Below are positions 1,870 through 10,904 of a stretch of DNA of 64,000 nucleotides, piece after piece. Source of the stretch: Kiloniella spongiae (GTDB lineage Bacteria; Pseudomonadota; Alphaproteobacteria; Kiloniellales; Kiloniellaceae); assembly GCF_001026905.1 (NCBI RefSeq), contig NZ_LAQL01000006.1, positions 310,001-374,000 on the forward strand. Direction: 5' to 3'. Numbering within the stretch: the stretch's first letter is position 1; each line of letters begins with the position of its first letter. A model generated the notes under the pieces. It was not told the DNA's origin. It saw only the letters and a list, made by a program, of their open reading frames with translations, and made no database searches. The translations under genes and the position numbers were made by a program.

Positions 1870-1885
1870 TGTTTCACGTGAAACA
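1870..1885. promoter_or_regulatory. parS: parS site, perfect consensus palindrome
   Basis: The 16-bp palindrome TGTTTCACGTGAAACA matches the bacterial parS consensus exactly. parS is the centromere-like site on which ParB loads and spreads, and it clusters near oriC. Here it sits in the intergenic space upstream of the small membrane protein and downstream of mnmE, about 7.7 kb from the predicted origin. The parAB genes are expected off the left edge beyond mnmG. Confidence 0.93.
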
Positions 1886-1923: not shown

Positions 1924-3279
1924 CTACTTTCCAATGCAAAAATCACGGAAAATAACATCTAATAGTTCTTCCACGTCCACTTTTCCTGTAATTCGTCCCA
2001 GATAACGTGTGGCAAGACGAAGATCTTCAGCACAAAGTTCTGGCAAATCAGTCTCAAGCGATCGTCCAAGTGAGTCCAGGCATTCCTGTAGCGCCAACCT
2101 GTGGCGTTGCCGCGTAATACCGGAAGAGCTACCTGACAGTCCCATATTCGCAACAACCCAAGTATTCAGCTTTTCTAACAAACTATCTATCCCCTCGCCG
2201 GACTTGGTGGATATTTTACTTATATCAAAGCCAGAAAGAGATTCAGGGATTGGTTGATCCTCTTCTCTTTTGTCACATTTATTTATGGCAACAAAAGAGT
2301 TTGCTGAATTCAATAGTCTTAATGTTTCCTGATCCAAGTTATCGCTATCTTCGATATCAAAAATTGCCAGACATAGATCAGCAGATTCAGCATGTAACTT
2401 GGCACGCCTTATTCCTTCAAACTCAATACCGTCTGTTGTGTTTTCTTCTATTTCTCTTAGACCTGCCGTATCAGAGACGATAACGGGATAACCAGATAGA
2501 TCGAGATGAACTTCAATAATATCTCTCGTTGTGCCAGCTACATCAGAAACAATAGCTACTTCGCGACGCGCCAAAACATTTAAGAGGGAAGATTTCCCCG
2601 CATTAGGCGGGCCGACAATTGCTATCTTAATGCCGTTTCGTAATCGTTCACCCCGATGACTATCATCCAGATGATGTTTAATATCTGCTTTAAGTTGCTC
2701 TATATTGTGTTTTACCTGATCAGAAATTCCCTCTTCCAATTCTTCGTCGGGAAAGTCAATTTCAGCTTCCATATAGGCCAGCATTCGAACAAGACGATCT
2801 CTCCACGCTTCGACAAGTTTGGAAAGTTCCCCATCCATTTGGCGAATGGCCTGTTTCCTTTGCGCTTCAGTTTCAGCAGCAATGAGATCAGATAAACCCT
2901 CTACTTCTGTTAAATCTAGTTTATCATTGTCAAAGGCACGTCGGGTAAATTCACCTGCTTCAGCCGGTCGAAAATCAAATAGTTTAGCCAAAGCTTCAAT
3001 CGTGCCATCAACAACCGCGCGCCCACCATGAAGATGTAGTTCAACAACATCTTCCCCCGTAAAACTGCCAGGGCCTGGAAACCAAAGCGCCAAACACCGA
3101 TCAAGTTCAGCCTTATCTTTGGGATCAAACAATTTTACTAGTGCTGCAACTCGTGGTTCTGGAAATGAAGATGACATTTCTTGCAAAACAACTCTGGCTT
3201 TGCTGCCAGATATTCTGATCACAGCGACCCCCGCCTGTCCTGGCGCGGTAGATAGGGCAAAAATTGTTTCGGAAGTCAT
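1924..3279 (-). CDS. mnmE: tRNA modification GTPase MnmE
   Basis: 451-residue potassium-activated GTPase that works with MnmG on tRNA U34. The N-terminal tetrahydrofolate-binding domain (about 1-118) is followed by the helical domain. An inserted G domain carries the P-loop GPPNAGKS at 223-230, GTTRD at 249-253, DTAGLRE at 270-276 and NKCD near 334. The protein ends with the family's catalytic C-terminal CIGK (448-451), so it is complete. The ATG is at 3277-3279 and the length is typical. Two genes downstream on the same strand is its partner mnmG. A parS site lies immediately after the stop. Confidence 0.97.
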   Translation of the reverse strand: MTSETIFALSTAPGQAGVAVIRISGSKARVVLQEMSSSFPEPRVAALVKLFDPKDKAELDRCLALWFPGPGSFTGEDVVELHLHGGRAVVDGTIEALAKLFDFRPAEAGEFTRRAFDNDKLDLTEVEGLSDLIAAETEAQRKQAIRQMDGELSKLVEAWRDRLVRMLAYMEAEIDFPDEELEEGISDQVKHNIEQLKADIKHHLDDSHRGERLRNGIKIAIVGPPNAGKSSLLNVLARREVAIVSDVAGTTRDIIEVHLDLSGYPVIVSDTAGLREIEENTTDGIEFEGIRRAKLHAESADLCLAIFDIEDSDNLDQETLRLLNSANSFVAINKCDKREEDQPIPESLSGFDISKISTKSGEGIDSLLEKLNTWVVANMGLSGSSSGITRQRHRLALQECLDSLGRSLETDLPELCAEDLRLATRYLGRITGKVDVEELLDVIFRDFCIGK

Positions 3280-3459
3280 CTTGTCTAAACCAATAAGAGT
3301 TTTGTGCTCAATTCATCAGAATTCACATACCAGTGGAATTTGCACATTAGCCACAGGAAAACAGCAGGTCAAAAGCCTTTATAACATAGCAGAATTGCGG
3401 AAGTTTTATGATACAAGGGAATCAAATCAACATGAATACTCTATAAATAATAAAGAGAA

Positions 3460-3711
3460 TTACTTGGTTGTTTTTGATGAATCATCTTTGGAAAACTGAG
3501 ACCAAAACATCTTTTGCATTTGATCAAACCCCTGCATGGAAGCTGGCATCCAGGTTTTCATCAAAGCCTCAGGATCACTTGATTGAATACTCTCCAACAT
3601 TCTTTTTCTAACTTCTTCCATAGCTTCTTTCTGAAGCTCAGAAACATCAGGAAGCCCCAAAAACTGTCGTGCTTCTTCAGGTGTACAATCTATATCAAAA
3701 GTGATTTTCAT
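3460..3711 (-). CDS. DUF6489 family small protein
   Basis: 83 residues from the preferred ATG at 3711. An in-frame ATG 15 nt upstream (3726) is possible, but GGAAACAACG just ahead of 3711 looks like the ribosome binding site. The sequence MKITFDIDCTPEEARQFLGLPDVS, written here only in part as a short acidic N-terminus followed by an EEARQFLGLPD motif, and a C-terminal QGFDQMQKMFWSQ segment are typical of the alphaproteobacterial DUF6489 family. Function is unknown; the C-terminal part is probably amphipathic helix. It stands alone between mnmE and the second parS-like site. Confidence 0.75.
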   Translation of the reverse strand: MKITFDIDCTPEEARQFLGLPDVSELQKEAMEEVRKRMLESIQSSDPEALMKTWMPASMQGFDQMQKMFWSQFSKDDSSKTTK

Positions 3712-3795
3712 CGTTGTTTCCTGCATTTAGATCAGACTGGTTAACACACCATACCTTACTTACAGAAAAAAATTACAAATTTTTATATTATCTTT

Positions 3796-3811
3796 TGTTT
3801 CACGGGAAACA
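3796..3811. promoter_or_regulatory. parS: second parS-like site, one base from consensus
   Basis: TGTTTCACGGGAAACA differs from the perfect parS palindrome by one base (T to G, right of centre). It lies in the short gap between the PAP2 phosphatase stop and the DUF6489 gene, 1.9 kb from the perfect site. ParB tolerates single central changes in several species, so it may be a weaker loading site. The intergenic position and pairing with the first site support function. Confidence 0.75.
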
Positions 3812-3829
3812 TTACTCAAGCGAAATAAT

Positions 3830-4576
3830 TTATTTCCAAGTTTGGCTAAAACTGGCCAACGGTTCTTTTGAAAAAATCCAATTCACAGTCCAACGTGTAA
3901 TATTGAGCATTGGTGTATAAATCATCCATATTGTCACCAGAACAGCCAGGAAAACACCACCGACAGCAACATCGCCAAACCAGTGTCCTCCCCCAACAAG
4001 TCTTGGGCTGGCATTTATAAGTGCAAAAAAGCTTACGAGAATTCCATAGGAAGTTCCAAAATATCGCCACATGAAAATAACTGAAATAAAAGAAATAGCG
4101 GCATGATCACTAGGGAATGATTTCCTTGTTCCTGTTTTAACCTCTATCCAGGAAACAAGGTCATTTATATTTACAAAAGGCGTAAGGACCTGTGATGGAC
4201 TCTGATGATAATAAAGCTCAAAACCCCGGGAAATTATTATCATCGTTATAACAACGGAAATGATTAAAAGACAAACTCTCGCAAAGCGTTCTTGAAAAGA
4301 AGTTTGCCTGTTCAGTAAAACATACCAAAGACAGATAGACGCTAAAAATAACCCACTTAAACTATCAAAAATTTTACTATTGGTGAAAGCCCAGTAGTTA
4401 TTCCAAAGGCTACGCCCTTCTTGCAAGGAACCATTCAAATAGAAAAATATCTGCTCGTCCCAAGGTGTTTTAAAACCCTGGTCTATAGAAAAATAAACAA
4501 CCAACCCAATAATCACATTTCCCAGAAATAATTTCTTTATGTTCCATGATGATAGGTTTTGATCAGAATTATTCAC
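3830..4576 (-). CDS. PAP2-superfamily membrane phosphatase
   Basis: 248-residue multi-spanning membrane protein of the type 2 phosphatidic acid phosphatase superfamily, which removes phosphate from lipid phosphates such as undecaprenyl pyrophosphate or phosphatidate. The KTGTRKSFPSDHAA stretch and the later SPRLVGGGHWFGDVAVG stretch supply the superfamily's Arg, Ser-His and His/Asp active-site residues. The start is a GTG at 4574-4576, preceded by AAGGG at good spacing. It is divergent from ogt. The exact substrate cannot be read from the sequence. Confidence 0.85.
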   Translation of the reverse strand: MNNSDQNLSSWNIKKLFLGNVIIGLVVYFSIDQGFKTPWDEQIFFYLNGSLQEGRSLWNNYWAFTNSKIFDSLSGLFLASICLWYVLLNRQTSFQERFARVCLLIISVVITMIIISRGFELYYHQSPSQVLTPFVNINDLVSWIEVKTGTRKSFPSDHAAISFISVIFMWRYFGTSYGILVSFFALINASPRLVGGGHWFGDVAVGGVFLAVLVTIWMIYTPMLNITRWTVNWIFSKEPLASFSQTWK

Positions 4577-4729
4577 ACTTGAGCCCTTAATTATTTTAGT
4601 GGTTGGTATTCCCTACCAAACATCACCACATATGCTGTTATAATATCGTAAAACAATAAAAAACGTTATCATGCAGTACGCACGTTTTTTCCTAATCCTA
4701 TTATAAGCCTCTGACAACCGGGAACTTCT

Positions 4730-5224
4730 ATGTATCATTTAACCTTTTCTTCGCCACAAGGCTATTTGGATATCGCGGAAGAAGATAACAAAATAGTTCG
4801 ATTGCAATGGATTAGTGACAAAAATCTCTATGAACAATCCTCTACACCTTTGCTTCTAAAATGTAAAAAACAGCTAAAAGAATACTTTGCCGGAGAACGG
4901 AATAATTTTGATGACATTCCTTTGGCACCAAAAGGAACAGATTTTCAAAAAAATGTATGGCAAGCCTTATACAGAATTCCTTATGGAAAGGTAAAAACCT
5001 ATGGTGATATTGCCCATGAGATTGAATCTGTCGCAAGAGCGGTCGGTGGTGCCTGTGGTGCAAACCCTATACCTATTATCATCCCTTGCCATCGCGTCAT
5101 TGCAGGAAATCAGGCACTCGGTGGTTTTTCCGGTGGTGAAGGCGGAAAATCAAAAAAAGAACTCTTATTTCTAGAAGGTTATAAACACTTTGAAGAAAAC
5201 CAGCCAAATCTTCCCGGACTTTGA
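4730..5224 (+). CDS. ogt: methylated-DNA--[protein]-cysteine S-methyltransferase
   Basis: 164-residue suicide DNA-repair protein that takes alkyl groups from O6-alkylguanine or O4-alkylthymine onto its own cysteine. The active site is IPCHRV with Cys120. FQKNVWQALYRIPYGKVKTY and the GGFSGGEGGKSKKELLFLEG tail are the usual DNA-binding domain features. The length matches Ogt-type single-domain enzymes rather than the longer Ada. ATG at 4730. A TATAAT hexamer at 4639-4644 could be a -10 element, but no convincing -35 accompanies it. The next gene, a quinone oxidoreductase, is 57 bp downstream on the same strand. Confidence 0.95.
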   Translation: MYHLTFSSPQGYLDIAEEDNKIVRLQWISDKNLYEQSSTPLLLKCKKQLKEYFAGERNNFDDIPLAPKGTDFQKNVWQALYRIPYGKVKTYGDIAHEIESVARAVGGACGANPIPIIIPCHRVIAGNQALGGFSGGEGGKSKKELLFLEGYKHFEENQPNLPGL

Positions 5225-5281
5225 GTAACGGTTACTAATACCGAAAACAGGTTTTAATAATTATACAAACACAGGTGAAAC

Positions 5282-6265
5282 ATGAACAAGGGCATTAAAT
5301 TTTACGAATATGGCGGACCGGAAGTTCTTCATTACGAAGACATTGAAACTGGTAAACCTGGAAAAGGGGAAATAAGACTAAAACAAACAGCTATCGGGCT
5401 TAACTTTATAGATGTATACCATAGGACTGGCCTCTACCCACAGCCATCACTTCCTTCGGGTATAGGTTTAGAAGCTGCTGGCATTATTGAAGATATTGGT
5501 CCCGGCGTCACAGATCTCCATGTCGGAGACCGAGTTGCCTATGGCACTGGACCAATAGGCTCTTACGCAGAACATAGAATAATCCCGGCAGATAAAGTCA
5601 TTCTTATTCCTGAAAGAATTTCAGATGAAGAAGCGGCCTCTGTAATGCTGCAAGGAATGACCACTGAGTATCTCATAAGACGCACCTATTGTGTTCAACC
5701 GGGCGACCTTGTTCTTTTCCATGCTGCTGCAGGTGGTGTCGGATCTCTTGCGATCCAATGGCTCAACGCATTGGGCGCAACTGTTATTGGTACGGTCGGC
5801 TCTGAAGAAAAAGCAGAAATAGCCAAAGCAAAAGGCTGTCACCACATCATCAATTACAAAACCGAGAATTTTGTCGAACGGGTGACAGATATTACAGACG
5901 GCAAAGGCGTAAACGTTGTTTATGACTCAGTTGGTAAAGACACTTTTGAAGGGTCTCTTGATTGCCTGAAGGTCCGCGGTACCATGGTTACTTTTGGCAA
6001 TGCATCCGGCCCTGTTCCTGCTATAGAGCCTCTTATACTCAATGCAAAAGGTGGCATCTATCTGACCCGTCCAAGTTTAGCCCATTATTGTGGAACTCAT
6101 GATGAAATGACTGCTTCGGCAAATGCTTTATTCCAGGCAATCTCTTCTGGCGCAATCCAAATTGACGTCAATCAAAGCTATGCATTGTATGACGCCCGTA
6201 AAGCACATGAAGATCTGGAAGCAAGAAAAACCACAGGATCAACCATTCTTGTTCCTGAGCACTAG
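5282..6265 (+). CDS. qor: zinc-independent NADPH:quinone oxidoreductase
   Basis: 327-residue medium-chain dehydrogenase/reductase of the quinone oxidoreductase branch, expected to reduce quinones or enals with NADPH. The N-terminal GroES-like domain includes the GLEAAGIIEDIGPGVTDLHVGD segment. The Rossmann domain shows HAAAGGVGSLAIQ (GxGxxG-type, about 146-158), and the family's SLAHY is near residue 266. No catalytic-zinc ligand pattern is seen, consistent with Qor rather than alcohol dehydrogenase. ATG at 5282. The stop is followed by a strong hairpin shared with convergent rho. Confidence 0.92.
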   Translation: MNKGIKFYEYGGPEVLHYEDIETGKPGKGEIRLKQTAIGLNFIDVYHRTGLYPQPSLPSGIGLEAAGIIEDIGPGVTDLHVGDRVAYGTGPIGSYAEHRIIPADKVILIPERISDEEAASVMLQGMTTEYLIRRTYCVQPGDLVLFHAAAGGVGSLAIQWLNALGATVIGTVGSEEKAEIAKAKGCHHIINYKTENFVERVTDITDGKGVNVVYDSVGKDTFEGSLDCLKVRGTMVTFGNASGPVPAIEPLILNAKGGIYLTRPSLAHYCGTHDEMTASANALFQAISSGAIQIDVNQSYALYDARKAHEDLEARKTTGSTILVPEH

Positions 6266-6345
6266 GACTAAGCTTGATCAGAGCTGAATAGTTAAAGAGT
6301 TAATTAGTTCTGACCAACAATTTAATAATCGTATATCTAAAAATA

Positions 6346-6381
6346 AAAAAGGGCCGCCAGTTTTCTTTGGCAACCCTTTTT
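6346..6381. terminator. bidirectional intrinsic terminator between qor and rho
   Basis: An A-run, then GGGCCGCCA, an 8-nt loop, TGGCAACCC and a T-run form a stem with a small internal bulge. Flanking A and T tracts let it work for both convergent genes. Confidence 0.8.
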
Positions 6382-6400
6382 CTTGTCTGGATTAAACCAA

Positions 6401-7657
6401 TTACTGGTTCATCGAATCAAAGAATTCGTCATTGTTTTTGGATGTTTTCAGTTTATCAACCAAAAACTCTACAGAATCTGTCACACCCATTGGTGTAAGA
6501 ATACGGCGAAGAACCCACATTTTACTCAGTGTTGCCTTGTCGACCAGCAGCTCTTCTTTACGTGTACCGGATTTACTGATGTCAATCGCAGGATAGGTAC
6601 GTTTATCAGAAAGTTTGCGATCAAGGACAATTTCAGAGTTACCTGTACCTTTAAACTCTTCAAAGATCACTTCGTCCATGCGGCTACCAGTATCGATAAG
6701 AGCCGTGGAGATGATCGTCAGGCTGCCGCCCTCTTCAATGTTACGTGCAGCACCAAAGAAGCGCTTAGGACGCTGTAGCGCGTTCGCATCCACACCACCG
6801 GTCAAAACTTTACCGGAACTCGGCACAACTGTGTTGTAAGCACGGGCAAGACGCGTGATGGAATCAAGAAGGATAACGACATCCTTTTTGTGTTCAACAA
6901 GACGTTTTGCTTTTTCGAGAACCATTTCAGTTACCTGAACATGGCGATGAGCTGGTTCATCAAAGGTAGAGCTAACCACTTCTCCTTTAACAGAACGTGC
7001 CATATCAGTTACTTCTTCCGGACGTTCATCAATAAGAAGAACAATCAGGAAAACTTCTGGATGATTTGCCACAATTGATTGGGCAATATTCTGCATCAAG
7101 ACGGTTTTACCGGTTCTTGGCGGCGCTACAATCAATGCACGCTGACCTTTACCCAGTGGTGTCACCAGGTCGATCACACGGGTCGTCATGTCTTTTTTGG
7201 TTGGATCATCAAGCTCAAGCTTGAGTTTTTCGTCCGGATAAAGCGGCGTCAGGTTATCAAAATTGATTCTGTGACGTGAAGATTCCGGTTGATCAAAGTT
7301 AATTTGGTTAACTTTCAGAAGGGCAAAATAGCGTTCACCATCTTTTGGCGCGCGAATTTGACCTTCGACAGTATCACCCGTTCTTAAACCGAAACGCCTT
7401 ACCTGACTTGGACTGACATAAATGTCGTCAGGTCCTGGCAGATAGTTTGATTCCGGTGCACGGAGAAAACCAAACCCATCTTGTAAAATTTCCAAAACGC
7501 CCGAGCCAAAAATAGGCACATCGTTCTCAGCCATTTGTTTGAGGATGGCGAACATCATGTCCTGCTTACGCAGGGTGCTGGCGTTCTCTACTTCAAGTTC
7601 CTCTGCAAGCTTTAGAAGCTCTGCCGGACTTTTTACTTTGAGATCTTGTAAGTTCAT
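6401..7657 (-). CDS. rho: transcription termination factor Rho
   Basis: 418-residue hexameric RNA-dependent ATPase that terminates transcription at rut sites. The N-terminal helical and cold-shock-type RNA-binding domain holds the RNP1-like GFGFLR at 61-66. The P-loop APPRTGKT is at 178-185, followed by the [13 protein letters not shown] Walker B region and the arginine-rich R-loop region. Length is standard. ATG at 7655-7657. A 240-bp leader separates it from hemJ, with a promoter candidate at 7837-7863. Genes near oriC in alphaproteobacteria commonly include rho next to hemE. Confidence 0.98.
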
Positions 7658-7836
7658 ATGATGGAAAAGTTTGGTTCAGTTAATAATGAACGAGATGATA
7701 AGGATGCAACAAACAAGTTAAGATTTATAAAAGGCTTCGTCTTTTTTGCGACGATCCTCAAAGACCTGATATCCTGTTGCAATGTAAATCGGAGTAACGG
7801 GCTGTTGAAGTTGGCCCACGTTTGCTAGCGGGGTGA

Positions 7837-7863
7837 ATTATAGTACCTCAAAAAGGAAGTCAA
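7837..7863 (-). promoter_or_regulatory. candidate rho promoter
   Basis: Read on the minus strand, TTGACT (7858-7863) is followed after 15 nt by TATAAT (7837-7842), preceded by TAC. The spacer is 2 nt short of the sigma-70 optimum. It lies about 180 nt upstream of the rho ATG, leaving a long leader of the kind in which rho is autoregulated in other bacteria. Confidence 0.5.
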
Positions 7864-7897
7864 GTAAAAGAATTCTCTTTTAAACTAAATTTTAGAC

Positions 7898-8341
7898 TTA
7901 AAATGGCTTCACGACTGCAAAAATAACGATAACAATCATTAAAACGGTCGGAATTTCATTAGCATAGCGATAAAAACGTTCACTTCGCGTGTTTTTGTCC
8001 ACTTGGAAAGCTTTCATCCACTTTCCGGCGATTTCATGAAAAACAGTTAAAGCAATCAAAAGGGTTAATTTGCCGTGAAACCAGCCATCGCTATAGGCTT
8101 CAATATTTAAAACCAAAAGAATCCCAAAAAGCCAGCTGGCCATCATTGCCGGGTTCATTATGAAGCGAAAAAGCTTCCGCTCCATAACTTTAAAAATCTC
8201 TGACCGTTCGGAACCGACAGGAACCTGTGTATGATAAACAAAAATGCGCGGAAGATAGAGCAATCCTGCCATCCATGAGATAACAGAGATAATATGCAGA
8301 GCTTTTATCCAGAGATAGCCCTCACCTAAAAATCCACCCAT
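7898..8341 (-). CDS. hemJ: protoporphyrinogen IX oxidase HemJ
   Basis: 147-residue membrane protein of the HemJ (UPF0093) family, which oxidises protoporphyrinogen IX to protoporphyrin IX in heme synthesis. About four membrane helices are predicted. WIKALHIISVISWMAGLLYLPR contains the conserved histidine (His16). RIFVYH and ERKLFRFIMNPAM follow, and a second conserved helix pair is near the C-terminus. ATG at 8339-8341. It sits 24 bp downstream of hemE on the same strand, so two heme pathway steps are encoded together. Confidence 0.93.
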   Translation of the reverse strand: MGGFLGEGYLWIKALHIISVISWMAGLLYLPRIFVYHTQVPVGSERSEIFKVMERKLFRFIMNPAMMASWLFGILLVLNIEAYSDGWFHGKLTLLIALTVFHEIAGKWMKAFQVDKNTRSERFYRYANEIPTVLMIVIVIFAVVKPF

Positions 8342-8365
8342 TAGCTAGAAATTCCTGTCTTAAAT

Positions 8366-9397
8366 TCAGCCCCTGACGAGCCTTAGCATTTTTTCAACAT
8401 TCTCGATTGGTGTTTGTGGCACAATGCCATGACCAAGATTGAAGATAAAGGGCCCATCACTGAGATCGTTCATAATTGTTTCAATGGATTTTTCGAGGAT
8501 TTCACCACCTGCTACGAGCACGAGCGGATCCAAATTACCCTGGACAGTAACATGAGTTTGAATGTTATCTCTGGCCCAGGATGTAGATAAAGTCGTGTCC
8601 AGACCCAAGGCATCAGCTCCGCTTTCTTTAGCAAAAACTGGATAGCTGTCCCCTACTCCCCTTGGAAAGAGAATAACCGGGACGTCTGGATAAACTGATT
8701 TGATTCCAGCTATAATCTGTTTACAGGGTTCCAAACACCAACGATGAAGAGCAAATTCGGGCCATACACCTGCCCAGGAATCAAAAATCTGTACAGTTTC
8801 TGCACCGCTTTCAATCTGTTTGATTAGATATCTCGTTGTTGCTTCAACGACCAGATTGATAATTTGATCAAACTCTTCTGGTTTTGAGTAGGCCCAGGTT
8901 TTTGCCTTCGCATAATCTTTGGAAGAACCGCCTTCTATCATATAGCTGGCGACTGTCCAGGGAGCCCCGGCAAAGCCGATTAAGGTAGTTTCTTTTGGAA
9001 GTTCTTCTTTCAAGCGACCAAGGGTTTCATACATTGGAGCTAAAATTTCATGAAGATTATCCATATTTAGCTTTGATAGATCTTCTATGGAATTAAGGGG
9101 TTCCAGTTTAGGGCCTACGCCTTCTTCAAACCATACCTTTTGACCAAGTGCATGGGGAATAACCAAAATATCACTGAACATGATTGAAGCATCAAACCCA
9201 AATCTGCGAATGGGCTGAAGCGTTACTTCTACTGCGAGATCCGGTGTGTAACAAAGATCGAGGAAGCCGTTCGCAGATGCTCTTGTTTTTCTATATTCTG
9301 GTAAAAATCGGCCTGCTTGTCTCATAAGCCAGATCGGTGTGCGTTCTGTTTTTTCGCCTTTTAGGGCGCGTATCATGAGTTTGTTTTCGGTTTTCAC
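8366..9397 (-). CDS. hemE: uroporphyrinogen decarboxylase HemE
   Basis: 343-residue cytosolic enzyme that decarboxylates the four acetate side chains of uroporphyrinogen III to give coproporphyrinogen III. Family signatures are PIWLMRQAGRFLPEYR at about 21-36 and GFAGAPWTVASYMIEGG. The start is GTG (9395-9397), chosen because the NKLMIRALKGE segment before the first ATG aligns with the usual N-terminus. It is adjacent to the predicted chromosome origin, as in Caulobacter, and forms a likely operon with hemJ. Confidence 0.97.
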   Translation of the reverse strand: MKTENKLMIRALKGEKTERTPIWLMRQAGRFLPEYRKTRASANGFLDLCYTPDLAVEVTLQPIRRFGFDASIMFSDILVIPHALGQKVWFEEGVGPKLEPLNSIEDLSKLNMDNLHEILAPMYETLGRLKEELPKETTLIGFAGAPWTVASYMIEGGSSKDYAKAKTWAYSKPEEFDQIINLVVEATTRYLIKQIESGAETVQIFDSWAGVWPEFALHRWCLEPCKQIIAGIKSVYPDVPVILFPRGVGDSYPVFAKESGADALGLDTTLSTSWARDNIQTHVTVQGNLDPLVLVAGGEILEKSIETIMNDLSDGPFIFNLGHGIVPQTPIENVEKMLRLVRG

Positions 9398-10082
9398 GAT
9401 CTCTTTGAACCTCGCGTTAAGAGTTATCTCTATTAATATACTATGTAATAGTAATTATTTGTTGTTGTTGTAGATCCCTGTGAATCACGAGGATTAGTCA
9501 GTTATTCATAACTTGTCCTCAAGCTTCAAGTCTTCAATTTAAATTTTTCGTGATTCCTGATTGTTCTGTGAATTTCATCGTGGATTGAAAATGGGGACTC
9601 GTTAATGAATCTCGGAGTCCTATTTTTTCCTTAATAACCTTAATTACGGGGATAACTTTTTTATGTTTCGGAGTCCTTTTACAAGTTTTGCACAGATGTG
9701 AATATTGCAGCGAATTGTCGCATAAGGTGAGGGAGAGACTTGGGGACAGCGTGTGTAGAAAAAGGGCATGTGGACAAATAGCTATAGTTATCCACAAAGT
9801 TTTACGCACTACCCCCAACTTTGTTCACATTTGAGAGCACGATCCGGATAGTCGTGTTGTTTGAAGAATAAGGTATTGTTTTTCTTTGGCTTGGTGTTTG
9901 TTCTGGCGTTTAAAAAGGGGGGGAATATTACCGATCCAAAGTTAGCTATTCCTTGTCGAAAATATGAAAATAGACCGCTTTCCTCTTAGACACGGTTTCG
10001 TGTTTTATACTTAATGTGTATGTATGAAGCACAATAATGTGCCGGGAAGCCGAAAGGCAGAGCCAAGAGTTCGGAAGTAGAT
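9398..10082. other. oriC: predicted chromosomal replication origin (oriC), hemE-ppsR intergenic region
   Basis: This 685-bp gap lacks a credible gene. It holds a perfect DnaA box TTATCCACA at 9788-9796 and six one-mismatch boxes: 9479-9487 (reverse), 9686-9694, 9697-9705 (reverse), 9752-9760 (reverse), 9769-9777 (reverse) and 9821-9829. An AT-rich stretch of about 77 percent AT at 9621-9668 is a candidate unwinding element. Six GANTC methylation sites lie at 9482, 9552, 9596, 9607, 9615 and 9671, and a 10-bp direct repeat TCGGAGTCCT is at 9612 and 9668. The hemE/RP001 junction is the known origin position in Caulobacter. Transcription diverges on either side apart from hemE-side leaders. Confidence 0.88.
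9686..9829. repeat. DnaA-box cluster
   Basis: Six sites fitting TTATNCACA with at most one mismatch occur within 144 bp: TTTTGCACA (9686), ATATTCACA (9697, reverse), TTCTACACA (9752, reverse), TTGTCCACA (9769, reverse), TTATCCACA (9788, perfect) and TTGTTCACA (9821). The mixed orientation and close packing are typical of an initiator-binding array. Confidence 0.85.
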
Positions 10083-10904
10083 ATGTCGCAAACCCATTTA
10101 CACCTTGTTTCAGATTCCACAGGTGAAACGATCAATTCTGTCGCTCGTGCCTGTATGGTGCAGTTCAAAGTGGAAGAACCTATTGAACATGTCTGGAGCT
10201 TGATAAGAACCAAGGTTCAAATGGAAAAGGTTCTTCTTCAGATCCGACAAAAACCTGGACCTGTTCTATTTACAGTTGTTAATCAAGAGCTTAGAGAAAT
10301 TTTAATCCGCGAATGCCGGCGATTGGGATTACCTTCTATTCCGGTTCTTGATCCGGTTATTCATGCGCTGGCCAGCTATTTCAATCTTGAAATGTCGGGT
10401 AAACCGGGGCTGCAGCACACGCTGGATTCAGAATATTTCAATCGAATTGAAGCGATGAATTTTGCTTTGAATCACGATGACGGCCAGCTTCCACAAAATT
10501 TGAATGATGCCGAGATTGTATTGTTGGGCGTTTCCAGAACATCAAAAACGCCAACCTGTATCTATTTGGCCAACCGGGGATACAAGGCAGCGAATGTTCC
10601 TATTGTTCCGGGGTGTCCTTTGCCAAAAGAACTGGAAAGCCTTAGTAATCCTTTGGTTGTTGGCCTAACAAAAGATCCGGCAAGCTTGATGCAGATCCGC
10701 CGCAGTCGTTTGAAAATGATCTCTAATGAAGAAGAAACAGATTATGTTCACCTGGAATCCATCAAGGAAGAGGTGAAAATGGCGCGGAAGTTTTGTAACG
10801 AACATCGTTGGCCAATTATTGATGTGACCCGTCGTTCTATCGAAGAAACAGCGGCAACAATCATTAAACACTATCATCGTCATATGGGTATTGCCGATGA
10901 ATAG
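10083..10904 (+). CDS. ppsR: pyruvate, phosphate dikinase regulatory protein (DUF299/RP001 family kinase-pyrophosphorylase)
   Basis: 273-residue bifunctional ADP-dependent kinase/Pi-dependent pyrophosphorylase that switches PPDK or PEP synthase off and on by threonine phosphorylation. The N-terminus MSQTHLHLVSDSTGET is typical. The P-loop-like GVSRTSKTPTCIYLAN near residue 154 is the family's nucleotide-binding motif. This is the RP001 gene that marks one side of the origin in Rickettsia and Caulobacter. ATG at 10083. Its 3' end overlaps the start of maf by a few bases. Whether the target is PPDK or PEP synthase cannot be told here. Confidence 0.94.
   Translation: MSQTHLHLVSDSTGETINSVARACMVQFKVEEPIEHVWSLIRTKVQMEKVLLQIRQKPGPVLFTVVNQELREILIRECRRLGLPSIPVLDPVIHALASYFNLEMSGKPGLQHTLDSEYFNRIEAMNFALNHDDGQLPQNLNDAEIVLLGVSRTSKTPTCIYLANRGYKAANVPIVPGCPLPKELESLSNPLVVGLTKDPASLMQIRRSRLKMISNEEETDYVHLESIKEEVKMARKFCNEHRWPIIDVTRRSIEETAATIIKHYHRHMGIADE

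Follow-up and report, generated by a model that had tools for sequence, protein, structure and literature searches.

Does the gap between hemE and ppsR in this Kiloniella genome mark the start site of chromosome replication and, if so, at which point within it would DnaA open the duplex? The window analysed here, a stretch of 64,000 nucleotides, spans positions 310001-374000 of contig C55 (493,299 bp) from a 4.47-Mb genome in 76 contigs, and its features are listed in Table 1. Both flanking genes named in the initial annotation, hemE and the RP001/ppsR homologue, are identified by matches to their protein families. The best named match of this ppsR (99%) is a locus from an uncultured Kiloniella sp., which agrees with a Kiloniella-like host within the Kiloniellaceae. 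Likewise, the genes diverge around the gap as had been described: the main ORFs on the left side (1924-9397, in our choice of ORFs) comprise five genes on the minus strand versus two on the plus strand, and ppsR is followed on the plus strand by maf, aroE, coaE and a dnaQ-type exonuclease gene.

Table 1. Features in and around the hemE/ppsR gap, in positions of the window.
Feature	Positions	Strand	Basis or remark
parS, perfect	1870-1885	+	own-genome site scan
parS, one mismatch	3796-3811	+	own-genome site scan
hemE, left flank	8366-9397	-	URO-D/HemE PF01208, 3.4e-120
hemE/ppsR intergenic gap, proposed chromosomal origin	9398-10082	.	genus alignment (8 genomes), GC-skew minimum at 9204
Likely duplex unwinding element (putative role), AT-rich, adjoining the trio array	9417-9458	+	81% AT 48-mers
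Array TTG-TTG-TTG-TTG-TAG (3'-GAT-GTT-GTT-GTT-GTT-5'), trio-like, candidate single-strand DnaA site	9459-9473	+	genus and class conservation
Spacer ATCCC, array to DnaA box	9474-9478	+	module scan
Inverted DnaA box TGATTCACA, R1-like; GANTC inside at 9482-9486	9479-9487	-	module motif, box scan
Further conserved element CGAGGATTA; consensus in the class, cGGGGATtA	9488-9496	-	EM motif
DnaA-box-like TTATTCATA	9502-9510	+	identical in 8/8 genus rows
Near-palindrome GGGGACTCGTTAATGAATCTCGGAGTCC, three GANTC (9596, 9607, 9615)	9593-9620	.	sequence, genus alignment
DnaA-like TTATCCCCG	9647-9655	-	TTATCCCCA in several genus members
DnaA-box-like TTTTGCACA	9686-9694	+	box scan
DnaA-box-like ATATTCACA	9697-9705	-	box scan
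DnaA-box-like TTCTACACA	9752-9760	-	box scan
Rival opening site: run of three A-centred trios (TAG-AAA-AAG) at 4 nt from the 9769 box	9756-9764	+	trio-run scan
DnaA box TTGTCCACA, one mismatch	9769-9777	-	kept in 5/8 genus rows
Perfect DnaA box TTATCCACA	9788-9796	+	identical in 8/8 genus rows
DnaA-box-like TTGTTCACA	9821-9829	+	three genus members that are more distant have TTATTCACA or TTATGCACA
ppsR (RP001/COG1806 homologue), right flank	10083-10904	+	Kinase-PPPase/PpsR PF03618, 3.9e-94

Relatives keep this gene context. A gap with divergent hemE and ppsR is present at the order level in 49 of 51 loci, in the named set in 79 of 80 and, among the matches listed, at the class level in 56 of 60; the class-level loci were taken as one per family from score-ordered matches representing 206 of 290 genomes. 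At the order level, the exceptions are a locus at a contig end (G035) and one with no hemE within 1.5 kb (G005), which was for this reason left out of the genus alignment (eight of nine genomes). The gap of G005, a draft genome, looks rearranged, and the ORF directly upstream of ppsR (L060:1-1296, minus strand) has a C-terminus that appears GGDEF-like by eye. In the alignment, the gap is conserved from about 9398 to 9830, followed by a divergent stretch and then by a conserved ppsR-proximal part, and conservation is strongest at the hemE side and around the perfect DnaA box. G007 has a longer gap (L061) of 874 nt, in which additional sequence separates the perfect DnaA box from ppsR.

A minimum of cumulative GC skew had been named as a check on the origin. 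Calculated over contig C55 rather than the entire replicon, the minimum falls at window position 9204, 194 bp from the gap; in ten-kb bins, all 32 bins up to and including that of the gap are negative, and 16 of the 18 beyond it are positive. The final two bins of the contig, from 480 kb (C55:480001-493299), are negative, against the trend of the replichore. In contig C12, the 15 sampled stretches are all negative; the own-genome skew covers C55 and these stretches, about 0.8 of the 4.47 Mb. The cumulative keto/amino and A/T curves of C55 turn at window position 8787. Near the gap are also genes for ParB (C55:307170-308105) and ParA (C55:308164-309015), and the whole genome contains four parS-like sites with at most one mismatch, all within C55:309302-313811. 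Two of them are the parS sites that had been placed 6-8 kb from the gap (Table 1), and the other two start at C55 positions 309302 and 309587.

Replication might now begin elsewhere, the gap being an ancestral site that skew and synteny still mark. Indeed, dnaA is 253 kb away, the assembly in 76 contigs leaves other sites possible, the purine curve of C55 has its minimum at window position 3801 (5.6 kb from the gap), and the complete relative G012 has an ambiguous skew, near zero also after re-sampling, that leaves the gap unmarked and provides no confirmation. A dnaA gene far from the origin is not unusual among Alphaproteobacteria. Against a relocated start argue the sharp GC-skew switch at the gap in its own contig, the adjoining parABS and the conservation of the DnaA boxes across the genus, as well as the complete relative G049, where the skew of ten 20-kb samples changes sign between the two that flank the gap (-0.009 and +0.019) and once more halfway round the genome; we consider this reading highly improbable. 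Because the kept gene context coincides with the contig GC-skew minimum, nearby parABS, an excess of DnaA boxes and a conserved module (see below), the hemE/ppsR gap is almost certainly the start site of chromosome replication, as the initial annotation had proposed. Its location is confirmed as that of a textbook alphaproteobacterial hemE/RP001 origin, the site expected, and initiation there is what these sequence features predict.

Using TTATNCACA with at most one mismatch, we found eight DnaA sites in the gap, one perfect and seven with one mismatch, a number reached in none of 1000 dinucleotide shuffles (mean 0.75, maximum 6). Moreover, the 12 fullest 685-bp windows for these sites, in 50-bp steps over the whole window, are all at the gap. 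The boxes described previously, the perfect one included, thus stand, and the count becomes eight instead of seven (one perfect, six with one mismatch). Counting with the strict TTATCCACA, which yields only one perfect and one one-mismatch site in the gap, was abandoned as an undercount; the earlier tally fits TTATNCACA. A search of the own genome for a tandem-box pattern was uninformative, with five forward matches versus two in the control.

Where in the gap would the duplex open? The initial annotation pointed to an AT-rich stretch at 9621-9668, which is indeed 77% AT; however, the hemE side of the gap supplies the six AT-richest 48-mers listed (81% AT, starts at 9417-9425), and the unwinding element is likely at 9417-9478 instead. 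Next to this DNA, the segment 9446-9496 reads TAATAGTAATTA-TTTG-TTG-TTG-TTG-TAG-ATCCC-TGTGAATCA-CGAGGATTA, and its part at 9459-9487, overlooked before, is likely the opening site, as judged from its sequence and conservation. The R1-like box TGATTCACA has two mismatches to TTATCCACA, which is within the limit for the box of a basal unwinding system (BUS) with DnaA-trios (at most two). It is abutted by CGAGGATTA in the manner of a weak tandem box; this element is 3 to 4 bases off a DnaA box and would be a putative one. The array is identical in seven of the eight genus genomes, and the eighth has TAG for one TTG. The class-wide layout is AT-rich DNA, a run of TTG, TAG or TGG, a short spacer and an 18-mer with the consensus TGTGAATaacGGGGATtA.

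To score this module we used a weight matrix trained on the first two of three gap sets (order, class and named), with T and G at trio positions 1 and 3, a free middle base and a spacer of 3-7 nt; the threshold was the 99th percentile of 368 shuffled gaps. Scores above it were obtained for 45 of 49 order gaps, 46 of 56 class gaps (among the matches listed) and 74 of 79 named gaps, in all 165 of 184, with 0 of 49, 7 of 56 and 9 of 79 for the reverse-complement control. The lineages of these sets overlap, with some genomes present more than once. Of the 184 gaps, 19 do not reach the threshold, and among those that do, the module is visibly misplaced in several (e.g. L117, L122 and L129); the counts are based on 151 distinct modules from gaps above the threshold. 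Across 778,360 bp of own-genome DNA, the best score is the one obtained here (34.3 versus 21.6 for the next place). The middle base of the 604 triplets in the 151 modules is T in 268, A in 186, G in 127 and C in 23, and no module contains four A-centred trios. Since T is enriched at this position instead of random, calling the middle base relaxed may be too simple.

An earlier scan by regular expression, which looked for an array accompanied by a box of no more than two mismatches, proved too rigid and was superseded by the variable-spacer matrix. It retrieved TNG arrays in 15 of 49, 2 of 56 and 12 of 79 gaps in forward orientation, 0, 0 and 3 in reverse, with shuffled maxima of 0, 1 and 1; the figures for NAN arrays were 8, 15 and 21 forward, 9, 13 and 14 reverse, and shuffled means of 2.6, 3.5 and 5.2. 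This NAN excess comes from the boxes, because NAN runs of three beside existing boxes (at most two mismatches, either strand) are at chance level in the three sets (51 of 304, 82 of 354 and 95 of 451, versus shuffled means of 58, 88 and 93). Beside the same boxes, TNG runs of three occur at 26 of 304, 9 of 354 and 24 of 451, versus shuffled maxima of 4, 4 and 6.

The T and G at trio positions 1 and 3 were picked post hoc, and array-blind tests free the choice of site from this, not the idea itself. When the 18-mer was chosen blind to the array, the 163 distinct upstream sequences had a three-base period of G (best phase 3.77 of 5, versus 3.04±0.05 in shuffled sequences) and of T (3.15 versus 2.70), and none of A (2.38 versus 2.34±0.04). 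A strong array was found by this choice in only 65 of the 163 gaps; when distances of up to 60 nt were allowed, the spacing from array to box had a median of 4 nt and was below 10 nt in 59 of these 65, with 45 at 3-7 nt. The array could also be a feature of the hemE leader or promoter, namely a CAA-rich 5' leader on the minus strand unrelated to DnaA, as in the gaps studied it precedes the start of hemE, on whose strand it reads CTACAACAACAACAA. Given that the spacing from array to box is so tight and that from array to hemE is loose (standard deviation 38, with hemE starts extrapolated from tblastn), such a leader is extremely unlikely.

As the available sections of PMC8287927, PMC10721633 and PMC10316083 describe it, the BUS of Bacillus subtilis is like the hemE-side element in having a box, a short spacer and an array of the same polarity beside AT-rich DNA, with a G at the box-proximal end of every trio. 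Unlike in B. subtilis, the middle base is T instead of A in four of the five window trios, and the position of Asn187 in DnaA is occupied by Tyr. The BUS rule, as worded in the accessible part of PMC8287927, calls for three or more NAN trios in a row, separated by no more than 16 bp from a DnaA box; it was proposed to be widely conserved (1755 of 2070 predicted origins), and its authors themselves suspected trios lacking the middle adenine. The array at 9459-9473 does not conform to this rule, the nearest NAN run being 24 nt from the R1-like box, and only 27 of the 151 related modules conform to it at their own box. The hemE-side array would then be BUS-like in action and outside the BUS by the published rule. 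We found no description of alphaproteobacterial trios without the middle A in the openly accessible text of the PMC literature, supplementary files aside, and there may be prior notice of them.

Among the 12 boxes in the gap, two agree with the published rule, those at 9769 and, weakly, at 9502, and a rule-based server could place the opening at either. The origin might thus be opened by an ordinary BUS from the 9769-9777 box via 9756-9764, with the TNG array auxiliary or unrelated. This is the sole place in the gap where a good box, with only one mismatch, accompanies trios of the published kind, and the weak case at 9502 is a second one of that kind; still, the chance-level frequency of NAN runs beside boxes in all three gap sets and the retention of the 9769 box in only five of eight genus rows make this alternative improbable.

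Escherichia coli oriC (L308) provides another comparison, with an inverted R1 box TGTGGATAA to the right of the DUE, a spacer ending in CCC and GGAT after the box; unlike in Kiloniella, we saw no TNG array there, and its DnaA has Gln at the Asn187 position. According to the consulted portion of PMC10316083, the E. coli DUE is recruited through TTGT and TTATT, and bending by IHF is part of the mechanism. An ordinary hemE/RP001 origin with such a DUE, its strand recruited via these motifs and no reading of trios, would account for the four overlapping TTGT in the window array, for the TTATT at 9455-9459 that overlaps its first base and for the same layout at the DUE-R1 junction of E. coli (...CTGCCC TGTGGATAACAAGGATCC). 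Indeed, TTGT occurs in 93 of the 151 modules (shuffled 48, maximum 61) and in 66 of the 163 array-blind upstream sequences (shuffled 36, maximum 46). Nevertheless, 58 of the 151 modules have no TTGT, TTATT is not enriched (17 of 151 modules versus 19 shuffled), the 97 array-blind upstream sequences free of TTGT retain a weaker period of G (3.39 versus 3.04±0.06), and the window gap lacks the IHF consensus. Taken with these data, an E. coli-type DUE seems rather unlikely, and opening through the TNG array remains our preferred reading.

What is known of the trio contacts bears on this reading. In B. subtilis DnaA, as reported in the available part of PMC10721633, Arg202 and Glu228 hold the guanine of a trio and Asn187 its adenine, and A-to-T changes in the trios impaired opening in vitro and initiation in vivo. 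The residues aligned with Arg202, Glu228 and Asn187 in the own-genome DnaA are Lys232, Glu258 and Tyr217. Of 91 DnaAs from Alphaproteobacteria, 87 have an aromatic residue at the Asn187 position (82 Tyr, 5 Phe), 3 have Asn and 1 has Thr, and the guanine-contact positions are Lys and Glu in all 91. In other Pseudomonadota, the best-scoring 27 DnaAs of our sample have Thr (8), Asn (8), Ala (7) or Gln (4) at the Asn187 position and never Tyr or Phe; the same 27 have Lys (19) or Arg (8) at the Arg202 position, and all have Glu at that of Glu228. The aromatic residue is thus special to Alphaproteobacteria in these samples, but the Lys/Glu pair, common elsewhere, is not.

In the three lineages with Asn, the middle base of the proximal trios is A, G or C, never T, as called automatically in L120 and L139 and by eye in L129, because the automatic array of the latter was misplaced; one Asn genome (G217) has 10% contamination. 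Among lineages with Tyr or Phe, 8 of 69 lack a middle T in the automatic call, which misplaced at least two of them. With 91 genomes and three Asn lineages, the apparent covariation of residue and middle base is suggestive only, and we take it as a lead. The DnaA ATPase family has a second, weak match (26.7 bits) at G000:C75:139203-139559 (L002); at a guess, its product is possibly an Hda-like regulator.

The gap shares with the Caulobacter crescentus Cori and with the hemE/COG1806 origins of Rickettsiales its flanks, DnaA boxes, an AT-rich part and a change of GC skew, as these are described in the accessible text of PMC1914354, which in that portion makes no mention of a trio-like array for either. 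Unlike Cori, here compared by description, the window gap contains no TTAA-N7-TTAA site for CtrA, not even in loose form, and no WATCAN5WTR site for IHF. CtrA sites are present in 2 of 49 order gaps, 7 of 56 class gaps (among the matches listed) and 3 of 79 named gaps, exceeding the shuffled maximum in the class set only (among the matches listed, 14 sites versus a mean of 3.1 and a maximum of 8), and IHF sites are not in excess across the order gaps (6 versus 5 shuffled). With these consensus sites absent from the window gap, we see no support for a CtrA-controlled mode of the Caulobacter type.

The gap contains six GANTC sites, a number matched in 29 of 500 shuffles, so the evidence for the window alone is weak. 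Counts across the gap sets are 210 versus 110 shuffled (order), 173 versus 118 (class, among the matches listed) and 282 versus 152 (named). In addition, 58 of the 151 modules have a GANTC, often AAGAATCTT, within 40 nt upstream of the array (shuffled 17, maximum 24). These array-side sites recall the GATC of the E. coli 13-mers. In two genus members the GAATC in the R1-like box is replaced by GAGTC, with the CcrM-type site retained, and the genome encodes, near C12:400040 (L331:715-1785), a CcrM-like methyltransferase that carries a RAMA domain. GANTC sites have been reported for the C. crescentus origin too, and in alphaproteobacteria bearing CcrM they are favoured in intergenic DNA, as stated in the available part of PMC3973325; for this reason we do not use their excess as an argument.

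In the mechanism that we propose, DnaA would load on double-stranded boxes, with the inverted R1-like box at 9479-9487 as its anchor and the boxes at 9502-9829 assisting, and its filament would extend leftward onto one strand of the array at 9459-9473, with one trinucleotide per protomer. The trio in the Kiloniella lineage, and widely in Alphaproteobacteria, would be 5'-TNG-3' (3'-GNT-5'). Its G would be captured by the Lys/Glu pair at the positions of Arg202 and Glu228 of B. subtilis, and the middle base would be read loosely because Tyr217 replaces the adenine-recognising Asn. The adjoining AT-rich DNA at 9417-9458 would then melt and receive the helicase. The binding of DnaA to the array, the role of Tyr as the cause of the relaxation and the succession of steps are our inferences. 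Central to the proposal is that conserved contacts to G go with a conserved G and a changed contact to A with a lost A. On the sequence comparisons made here, we regard it as probable that the origin is opened by DnaA on the TNG array, with G captured and the middle base relaxed. More tentatively, and at somewhat short of an even chance, the whole class may use this recoded signal, with 3'-GNT-5' trios, a middle base free to be T, A or G, Asn changed to Tyr or Phe, and readout of the flanking G.

If this is true, lineages holding Asn would avoid a middle T. The alteration of both residue and base in one class offers a natural test of nucleobase capture. Deviant trios could also explain part of the origins that the published rule misses or misplaces, and the TNG module would be a better marker for alphaproteobacterial origins and for the spot at which they open.
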